NCBI RefSeq assembly: GCF_900108025.1
Contig: NZ_FNUS01000005.1
Span: forward strand, 124,001-188,000
DNA length: 64,000 nt
Reading direction: 5' to 3'
DNA from: Halpernia humi
Lineage (GTDB): Bacteria > Bacteroidota > Bacteroidia > Flavobacteriales > Weeksellaceae
Of this stretch, positions 14,893 through 17,121 are shown one piece after another. Numbering within the stretch: the stretch's first letter is position 1; the number at the start of each line of letters is the position of its first letter. The position numbers and the translations under genes were made by a program. The notes beneath the pieces are model-generated. The model made no database searches, was not told the DNA's origin, and worked only from the letters and a program-made list of their open reading frames with translations.

Positions 14893-17121
14893 TTACAAAC
14901 TCAAAATCACTCCATTCTCCTTTAATTTTTCCAAAGGTTTTGAAAACCAAAACAATTCAAAATTATCAAAATTTTCTTCAAACTTATTTTTTAATTGATT
15001 TAAAGTGATTGATTTTGAATTTTTGATGGAATGTTCTTCTAATATTTTCATTAACCAAATTGCCTTTTCAGTTTCTAGATCAATTTTTAAATGATTGGTT
15101 TTAAGATGAAAAGTAAGGCTTGTCATTTCCTGAGAATTTCCTTTTTTTGTTTTAATAAAATTTTCAAAAAAAGCGATTTCAATTAAAAAAATAAGTTTAG
15201 AATTTCCTTTAAATAAAAATTGCTCTTCCTCTAAAAGGCAATCGTGGATGTAGTTTGGATCAATTGTAGTTTTCGGAATTTTAAAATCAAACCAATTTTT
15301 TAGTGGCAAATCAAAATTGATTCCGTGCATATAATTGTAAAGCGATTTTTTTAAACCAAAGGCAAATTTGCTGTGATTGATGCCCGTTTCGTCTGTAAAA
15401 TCAATATCATTATTGGCAAATTTTATGTCTTGAAGAATCGGCGTTACACCAAATTTTTCAGGATTTTTACCAACTGGCGAATGCGCCGTCATCGCAAATT
15501 GATGCCAAAAACCACTTTGCAAAACGCCCATTTCAAATAATTGGCGCACCATTTCTAAAGAATCTACCGTTTCTTGAACGGTTTGCGTGGGATAACCGTA
15601 CATCAAATACGCATGAACCATTATTCCTGCTTCGGTGAAATTGCGCGTCACTTGTGCAACTTGCGACACTGAAACGCCTTTGTCTATTAATTTTAAAAGT
15701 CGATCACTCGCCACTTCTAAACCGCCAGAAACTGCGACGCAACCGGAAATTTTTAATAAAAAACACAAATCTCGACTAAAACTTTTTTCAAACCGAATAT
15801 TCGTCCACCAAGTAAAGACTAAATTTCGGCGAATAATTTCTAGCGCCACTTCTCGCATCAAAGCCGGTGGCGCGGCTTCATCTACAAAATGAAAACCAGA
15901 TTCGCCAGTTTGCGCCATTAATTCTTGCATCCTATCTACCAAAATTTTTGCAGAAATGGGTTCGTAAATTTTAATATAATCTAAAGAAATATCGCAAAAA
16001 GTACATTTTCCCCAATAGCAACCGTGCGCCATGGTGAGTTTATTCCAACGGCCATCGCTCCATAAACTGTGCATTGGATTTGCAATTTCTATGACGGAAA
16101 TATATTGGTTTAAAAGCAAATCTGAATAATCTGGGGTGCCGACAAATGCTTGTTTGTAATCTGGTTTTGAGGCATTGTTTTTATATGCAACTTTTCCGTT
16201 TTCTAATAGAAATGTTCTTTTGAATTCTACCACCACCCCGTCAAAATTCTTTGAATTTTGCCACCCCTCCAAAGGAGGGGAATTTAGCACGGCATTACAT
16301 ATTAATTCTAGTGGCAATTCGCCATCATCTAAAGTGATAAAATCAAAAAAGTCAAAAACGCGTGCATCTTTCAAATCCCGCAATTCTGTATTTGGAAAAC
16401 CGCCGCCCATCGCGGTTTTAATGAAAGGAGAATTTTCTTTAATAAATTTTGCTGCACGAAAAGCCGCATATAAATTCCCTGGAAATGGAACGGAAAAACA
16501 GACCAATTTTGGCTGAATGGTTTCAATTTTTTCTTTTAAAATATTTAAAGAAATTTCATCGACAAAAGATTTTTCAGTGTTTAATTTTAAATAAAGTTCA
16601 TCGAAGGAATTGGCGCTTTGTCCGATTTTTTCGGCATATCTGCTGAAACCGAAATCGGCATCAATATTTTCAATAATAAAATCTGAAATATCTTCTAAAT
16701 ATAAGGTGGCGAGATGTTTCGCTTTGTCTTGCAAACCCATCATTCCGAAGGCATATTCTACATCATCTAACTGATTAAAACGTGAGGCTTCTGGCAAAAA
16801 ATTCATGCTGCAAATCTGCCGTGCTAAAGTTGGATTTTGATTTTGCAGAAAAAGCACGACTTGATTGATGGTTTTGATATACTCTTCTTTTAAAGCAAAA
16901 ATCCGTTGAGAATTTTCGGAAGAATTTTTAATATTTTCAATTTCGGCGAAAATTTTCTTTAAACCATTTTCAGAAAATAATTCTAAAATCACTTCCAATC
17001 CCAAATCCATCTGGAAAGATGAAATATTTTTGGTGTTCAAAAAACCTTTGATGTAAGCCGTTGCAGGATACGGCGTGTTGAGTTGCGTGAAAGGCGGGGT
17101 GATGAGAAGTAGGTCTTGCAA
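14893..17121 (-). CDS. B12-binding-type radical SAM protein of unknown substrate
   Basis: The 742-residue protein has an N-terminal B12-binding-like half (about 1-275, with ITPPFTQLNTPYPATAYIKG and MGGGFPNTELRDL) and a radical SAM core beginning at HGCYWGKCTFC (367-376), whose cysteines are spaced CX4CX2C. Further core marks are SGGLEVASDRLLKLIDKG (about 460) and YLMYGYPTQTVQETVDS (about 500). A cobalamin-assisted methylation or rearrangement is possible; the substrate is not evident. Residues about 280-297 are an in-frame palindromic repeat insertion. It overlaps no neighbour; GLPGLI gene lies 18 bases upstream in the same direction. Confidence 0.8.
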   Translation of the reverse strand: MQDLLLITPPFTQLNTPYPATAYIKGFLNTKNISSFQMDLGLEVILELFSENGLKKIFAEIENIKNSSENSQRIFALKEEYIKTINQVVLFLQNQNPTLARQICSMNFLPEASRFNQLDDVEYAFGMMGLQDKAKHLATLYLEDISDFIIENIDADFGFSRYAEKIGQSANSFDELYLKLNTEKSFVDEISLNILKEKIETIQPKLVCFSVPFPGNLYAAFRAAKFIKENSPFIKTAMGGGFPNTELRDLKDARVFDFFDFITLDDGELPLELICNAVLNSPPLEGWQNSKNFDGVVVEFKRTFLLENGKVAYKNNASKPDYKQAFVGTPDYSDLLLNQYISVIEIANPMHSLWSDGRWNKLTMAHGCYWGKCTFCDISLDYIKIYEPISAKILVDRMQELMAQTGESGFHFVDEAAPPALMREVALEIIRRNLVFTWWTNIRFEKSFSRDLCFLLKISGCVAVSGGLEVASDRLLKLIDKGVSVSQVAQVTRNFTEAGIMVHAYLMYGYPTQTVQETVDSLEMVRQLFEMGVLQSGFWHQFAMTAHSPVGKNPEKFGVTPILQDIKFANNDIDFTDETGINHSKFAFGLKKSLYNYMHGINFDLPLKNWFDFKIPKTTIDPNYIHDCLLEEEQFLFKGNSKLIFLIEIAFFENFIKTKKGNSQEMTSLTFHLKTNHLKIDLETEKAIWLMKILEEHSIKNSKSITLNQLKNKFEENFDNFELFWFSKPLEKLKENGVILSL
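16242..16280 (-). repeat. Two palindromes of an in-frame repeat inside the radical SAM gene
   Basis: CAAAATTC-TTT-GAATTTTG (16242-16260) and CCCCTCC-AAA-GGAGGGG (16264-16280) are two perfect hairpins in a row. They encode about residues 281-295 (SPPLEGWQNSKNFDG). The DNA looks like an intergenic repeat of flavobacteria, and it separates the B12-binding half from the radical SAM core. GC-rich stems such as these are otherwise absent from the gene. Confidence 0.7.

Follow-up and report, generated by a model that had tools for sequence, protein, structure and literature searches.

A palindromic repeat in frame in a radical SAM gene of Halpernia humi and its dispersed relatives beside DUF559 genes

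Results

A palindromic unit within a radical SAM gene

The window, that is, the whole stretch of 64,000 nucleotides of Halpernia humi DNA analysed here, carries on its minus strand a radical SAM gene of 742 codons (14893-17121), identified by Pfam. Codons 279-297 of this gene are taken up by a repeat unit of 54 bp (16232-16285), whose minus strand is read in frame as NSPPLEGWQNSKNFDGV and whose extent was fixed from ends shared with other copies. Four of the six frames are open across the unit. The original prediction had described two perfect hairpins in a row at the joint between a B12-binding half and the radical SAM core. Both hairpins proved exact when the pairing was checked. As for the joint, Radical_SAM is the only Pfam domain found in the protein and the B12-binding half is no more than plausible: NCBIfam gave 13 matches, several of them to B12-binding radical SAM families and all below the cut-offs.

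Read along the plus strand, the unit begins with ACCACCCCGTC, continues with a first hairpin (16242-16260) and with GCCACCCCTCC-AAA-GGAGGGG, which makes up a second hairpin (16264-16280), and ends in AATTT (16281-16285). The first hairpin, which is the variable one, pairs CAAAATTC (16242-16249) with GAATTTTG (16253-16260) in an 8-bp stem with a loop of 3. The constant second hairpin pairs CCCCTCC (16264-16270) with GGAGGGG (16274-16280), again with a loop of 3. The unit reaches beyond the two hairpins, to CCACCCCGTC at one end and AATT at the other; both are common to other copies, AATT to most of them. The plus strand reads CGTC at 16239-16242, as in the CGTC-tagged REPs of PMC3733652, and the last C of this tetranucleotide also pairs in the hairpin. 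As single-stranded DNA, 16226-16294 folds at -12.8 kcal/mol (z -3.47). Of 200 dinucleotide shuffles, which average -5.76 kcal/mol (sd 2.03), one folds as well. The 39-nt core had no match in 100 shuffles of the window, and a search of 15900-16600 against Rfam was empty at E<=1.

On the minus strand, CCCCTCC-TTT-GGAGGGG precedes the variable hairpin, after which comes GGGGTGG (CCACCCC on the plus strand, 16233-16239), which mirrors the purine arm. Judged by its letters, the repeat has the plan of a purine-motif intrastrand triplex: the constant hairpin would supply the pyrimidine and purine strands, GGGGTGG would be the third strand, and the variable hairpin would join strands two and three. 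A repeat of this plan may form a triplex. A scan for pyrimidine-purine-purine motifs, with arms of 7 bases and up to one mismatch allowed in each of two steps, found a single one in the window, the repeat itself; 60 windows simulated with a first-order Markov model contained 0.017 on average.

The linker that runs from DGE(L/V/A)Pxxx to KRTF is 27 residues long here. In 12 of 13 orthologues it has 12-16 residues, at least 11 fewer, and in the remaining one (G030) it has 20. A check fixed beforehand concerned conservation across the radical SAM family, and the insert residues are not conserved in the alignment of the 13 orthologues. The longer linker and the dispersed copies described below bear out the prediction that an intergenic-type repeat sits in frame in this gene, and show that the palindrome was inserted in frame into a linker that tolerates changes of length. 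The linker DNA of G030, AAATTCTCCAACTTTGGAGAG, looks like a decayed copy of the repeat. As to a single origin of the coding copies in G000 and G030, the gene tree does not group them (2% of 200 bootstrap trees), in a poorly resolved part of the tree. The AlphaFold model of the protein has a mean pLDDT of 61.9, and residues 283-296 of the insert fall below 50, as do many others elsewhere.

The same linker holds another dispersed palindrome in G020 (L049; ATTCTGAACAAAGTGAAGAAT), where 21 bases are identical to a second G020 copy and there is no net change of length. A worn form of this ATTCTGAACAAAGTGAAGAAT palindrome seems to be present in the linker of G001 (L044).

Dispersed copies with a variable hairpin

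The genome search that had been proposed for the same DNA returned six matches, the copy at 16232-16285 among them, in the own genome, which comprises 3.12 Mb in 12 contigs. A strict pattern of the repeat is present in 8 of the 59 relatives searched and, in the wider search of 120 genomes of the family, in 31; the reversed pattern gave 0 in the latter. The copies lie almost always outside convincing genes. Among 63 distinct strict copies in the Bacteroidota loci examined, two sit at least 30 codons inside a frame of at least 120 codons; one of these frames (L041, 120 codons) is probably spurious, and the copy at 16232-16285 is the sole one of the 63 deep in a convincing gene.

The outer parts of the repeat are constant and the hairpin between them varies, with 49 different hairpins among 62 copies. 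A stem score of at least 6 is reached by 32 of the 49 hairpins; with the halves swapped it is reached by 110 of 980, and after shuffling by 11 of 980. Pairing is thus maintained in many hairpins whose sequence has changed. The other 17, the forms of G024 included, score under 6. In several genomes of the element-rich genus g20 the dispersed copies mostly have a hairpin different from that of the copies flanking DUF559. One locus of G024 (L064, G024:C28:1-17000) has ten strict copies in one orientation within about 15 kb, adjoining a DUF559 gene, out of 23 in that genome.

Inverted copies at DUF559 genes of the family

In the own genome, a DUF559 (PF04480) gene of 143 codons stands between two oppositely oriented copies. 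DUF559 was found in 54 of the 120 family genomes (65 rows: 37 standalone genes, 13 long fused frames and 15 weak matches of at most 38 bits). The triplex motif lies within 350 bp of 28 of the 37 standalone genes, on both sides in 24 and inverted in all 24; its density is 1.63 per kb near these genes and 0.144 per kb elsewhere in the same loci. It also accompanies 9 of the 13 long fused frames. The scan found none near nine standalone and four fused rows, nor at any of the four weak matches tested out of the 15. Starting from the repeats gave the same association: among the matches listed, all nine opposite-strand pairs found by eye in bracketing order and less than 1 kb apart enclose a DUF559 gene. 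As a control, GIY-YIG genes had the triplex motif at 1 of 30 loci taken from a longer table.

Seven of the nine standalone rows that lack the motif (L077-L080, L082, L085, L088) belong by Pfam score to a second DUF559 subfamily. In 6 of these 7 loci the gene is flanked on either side by a different, short palindrome (CCCTTTAGGG type; 5.76 vs 0.48 per kb). In the DUF559 tree, the six placed rows of this subfamily form one branch and the 23 rows of the first subfamily form another. Across the 120 genomes, the element and the first-subfamily gene occur together in 22, the element alone in 9, the gene alone in 5 and neither in 84 (Fisher p 1.6e-12, with kinship ignored). The DUF559 locus lies next to the same gene in G000, G005, G008 and G020 (L069, L071, L067 and L003; four genera), a neighbour that we take to be urocanase-like.

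GIY-YIG was also considered as the partner of a second palindrome (ATTCTGA...AGAAT), an idea that came from one neighbour at L074. This repeat lies within 350 bp of 0 of 30 GIY-YIG loci, and none of eight ATTCTGA...AGAAT loci has a frame that fits a rough GIY-YIG pattern, and the idea was dropped.

A predicted Vsr-like fold of DUF559

The predicted model of DUF559 has a pLDDT of 90.4. Its closest structural match is 3hrl, NGO0050 of N. gonorrhoeae (Z 13.5), followed by 3r3p, the catalytic domain of the homing endonuclease I-Bth0305I (Z 11.6), and by Vsr (1cw0; Z 9.7), which Foldseek matches to the model at E 0.36. Sequence profiles match 3hrl at E 1.3e-25 and 3r3p at E 1.4e-4. YcjD is put in the PD-(D/E)XK superfamily, near Vsr, in the available part of PMC1189080. 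By its modelled fold, the DUF559 partner is classed as a Vsr-like PD-(D/E)XK nuclease, and a protein of this fold might cut DNA.

Whole cassettes in frame inside genes

In G028 and G086 the DUF559 domain lies with its flanking motifs in frame inside hsdR. Such a cassette is likewise in frame inside a gene with type I specificity domains in G060 and inside a gene with a type ISP specificity domain in G062. Repeat-flanked DUF559 is thus found in three kinds of restriction-modification gene (L092, L093, L094 and L095). Uninterrupted hsdR alleles occur in G089, G017, G141 and G061, with protein identity of 98-99% downstream of the site and 89-95% upstream. At the right junction, the element end GGGGAATTT abuts GGGAATTTATTA, a sequence of the empty allele, and 86 of 90 bases there agree with G089. 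At the left junction, the empty allele seems to have about ten bases that are lost here, in a flank too divergent to fix the point. No target duplication was seen at the hsdR cassette junctions. Like the solo element in the radical SAM gene, whole cassettes thus become established in frame within coding sequences, in hsdR and elsewhere. What speaks for repeats of this kind as a source of linker peptides is the single one of 63 copies deep in a coding sequence, the copy in G030, and the nuclease cassettes in frame in genes of three other kinds.

DUF559 and palindromes in other bacteria

Among 340 relatives of three sphingomonad proteins, the best 80 were taken as a mostly alphaproteobacterial set; by title nearly all are Sphingomonadales or Caulobacterales, and one is titled Arthrobacter. 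The motif lies within 350 bp in 77 of these 80 loci, on both sides in 47 and on opposite strands in 43, with a density of 2.34 near the gene vs 0.074 per kb. A test independent of the motif, in which one flank is compared with the reverse complement of the other, gave a score of at least 18 in 60 of 75 loci (five of the 80 lacked enough flank) vs 1 of 284 shifted intervals from the same loci. A common form here is CCTCCCC..GGGGAGGTGGC-[variable hairpin]-ACGGAGGGG. Strict copies of it number 53 in Sphingomonas sp. AOB5 and two in each of the three other genomes searched; in G144 the two are the pair at its DUF559 locus.

A plasmid collection gave 21 matching records (several of them chromosomes, and three plasmids of one strain), of which 14 were fetched and 13 tested, a long fused frame from Pseudanabaena being left out. 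All 13 loci, one of them cyanobacterial, have the motif within 350 bp (3.33 near the gene vs 0.87 per kb in the rest), in loci that are motif-rich throughout. At a DUF559 locus of Neisseria gonorrhoeae (L126), palindromic repeats recur every 281 bp downstream of the gene.

The DUF559 gene of Escherichia coli is ycjD, located between sapF and fabI, in a region of which 3330 of 5426 genomes have at least 80%. A repeat lying downstream of ycjD was matched 27 times in one chromosome and 16 times in another, and is letter-identical to entry 9 in the triplex table of Holder 2015 (PMC4666352). By eye, ycjD has no repeat upstream and three downstream, of which two are worn and point the opposite way. 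PMC4666352, in its available part, names this repeat BoxC/PIT/TM_ECO, dates the discovery of BoxC in E. coli to the 1990s, counts 23 copies in K-12, all intergenic, and reports no mobility genes near them and in vivo footprints that did not support stable triplexes. The words 'endonuclease' and 'ycjD' are absent from its main text.

Empty sites of solo BoxC copies were sought in E. coli. For yhfS-frlR, none of the best 30 of 5385 matches has both flanks without the repeat. At yjgR-lptG, W3110 and KMi029 have a different palindromic stretch. At least 80% of the recA-recX query is present in 1623 of 5426 genomes; in the short allele of MG1655, strain 114 and EC958, 16-17 nt replace about 190 and the junction is unreadable. 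The gap between recA and recX exists as a long allele with a BoxC copy and as the short allele of MG1655 (L285 vs L286). Neither a target duplication nor a clean empty site of the solo element was found at the E. coli BoxC sites or the hsdR cassette junction.

Discussion

A nuclease gene is bracketed by palindromes of the same design in many bacteria, and DUF559 is therefore the best candidate for spreading them. We believe, with a probability of roughly 0.65, that the palindrome in the radical SAM linker is a solo element and that repeat-DUF559-repeat is the autonomous unit of which such solos are non-autonomous offspring. The nuclease would mobilise the repeats, including movement in trans. 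In the mechanism that we propose, the DUF559 nuclease would recognise the folded or tagged repeat and nick or cut at the repeat or at the target, and repair would then copy the repeat or the whole cassette into the break, with joining at short homologies such as GGGAATTT. Solo repeats would derive in this way from DUF559 cassettes and would no longer be autonomous themselves. Several observations count against this account: element-bearing family genomes that have no first-subfamily gene, DUF559 rows near which the scan found no motif, repeats on one side alone at ycjD, the differing hairpins of dispersed and flanking copies in g20, the two strict copies of G144 that both belong to its DUF559 locus, the search for target duplications and empty sites that found none, and the footprints reported in PMC4666352.

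A wider proposal is that repeat-DUF559-repeat represents a separate class of mobile DNA, in which a Vsr/homing-type nuclease replaces the transposase. The class would extend over Bacteroidota, Pseudomonadota and probably Cyanobacteriota (one locus). BoxC/PIT, the CGTC REPs and the window element would be its non-autonomous descendants, in which the triplex frame is maintained and the hairpin can vary freely, and both solos and cassettes could settle in frame in protein linkers. We put this at even odds and go no higher, because the strict copies number just two in three of the four alphaproteobacterial genomes searched and Cyanobacteriota are represented by a single locus.

It is also conceivable, if rather unlikely, that DUF559 does not mobilise the repeats at all, and either acts on such folded DNA for some other purpose, by trimming or policing it, or is cargo that became trapped between two repeats and was passed on with them. 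A nuclease fold suits repair as well as mobility, 9 of the 31 element-bearing family genomes have no first-subfamily DUF559, and the locus beside the same presumably urocanase-like gene in G000, G005, G008 and G020 can be old and inherited. Against such bystander roles, the association recurs with different repeat sequences in Bacteroidota, in Pseudomonadota and at one cyanobacterial locus, the second subfamily has a palindrome of its own on both sides, and the hsdR genes that hold a cassette in frame have near-identical counterparts free of any interruption.

We think it improbable that the repeat is an ordinary REP mobilised by a transposase of the Y1 family (RAYT/IS200-type). The own genome does have six Y1_Tnp matches, five of them above the Pfam cut-off, and PMC3733652, in its available part, links GTAG-tagged REPs to RAYTs; yet none of the six Y1_Tnp loci examined has the triplex motif or the strings CCACCCC, CCCCTCC or CCCCGTC. 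The view that nothing was inserted and the linker drifted into a palindrome, to which its varying sequence and length (12-16 residues) among 12 orthologues would lend itself, is effectively refuted because dispersed copies exist, with the same constant parts recurring elsewhere in the own genome, and in view of the absence of chance matches to the core and the excess length of the linker we grant it next to nothing.

In open-licence PMC we found no paper that ties DUF559 to these palindromic repeats. A search there for GIY-YIG with 'repetitive extragenic palindromic' found none, and homing endonuclease with 'extragenic palindromic' gave papers off topic. In RepRanger 2025 (PMC12306157), a word search for nuclease, DUF, transposase and BoxC gave 0 occurrences. 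BoxC has been known since the 1990s and CGTC REPs since 2013, and the papers on them report no mobility enzyme for either. A nuclease repeatedly bracketed by repeats of the same plan makes the question of their mobility testable, with ycjD in E. coli K-12, and a mobile repeat, even a whole nuclease cassette, can join a protein-coding frame without breaking it.

The nearest known kin in design are BoxC/PIT of E. coli and the CGTC-tagged REPs. Like the window element, BoxC/PIT/TM_ECO has pyrimidine, purine and mirror-purine blocks on one strand and is dispersed and intergenic. The window element differs in a variable hairpin of about 25 nt between blocks two and three, whereas loops of 1-6 nt were searched by Holder (PMC4666352), and in a copy inside a gene, whereas the available part of that paper reports TM_ECO as always intergenic and makes no link to a nuclease. 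We regard the window element as similar in plan to BoxC/PIT/TM and, on account of its loop length, as a non-member.

CGTC-tagged REPs, as the available part of Di Nocera 2013 (PMC3733652) defines them, have an unpaired CGTC (or TGTC, CCTC) at one end, a stem of 8-9 bp that starts with A/T pairs, a loop of 4-5 (other lengths in some species) and a CCA tail; they apparently lack a dedicated transposase and include RPE-4 and RPE-6 of R. conorii. The window element resembles them in its CGTC, the A/T pairs first in the stem, the CCA tail, some copies in genes and Bacteroidetes among the phyla. Its stem is 7-8 and its loop 3, against a loop of 4 or 5 there, and the last C of its CGTC (16239-16242) pairs with G16260 in the 8-bp stem. 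The frame of CCACCCC and CCCCTCC..GGAGGGG goes unmentioned in the available part of PMC3733652. Here too we speak of similarity and not of membership.

The likeness to Rickettsia palindromic elements that had been proposed holds for behaviour, namely in-frame presence in protein genes, and it extends to one deep coding copy of 63. With RAYT-associated REPs and REPINs the present system shares a small resident enzyme gene bracketed by repeats and dispersed solo copies, but the enzyme is a predicted Vsr-like nuclease and not a tyrosine (HuH) transposase. I-Bth0305I and Vsr are the closest solved folds to DUF559 after NGO0050, and what sets DUF559 apart from them is that its gene is bracketed by palindromes.
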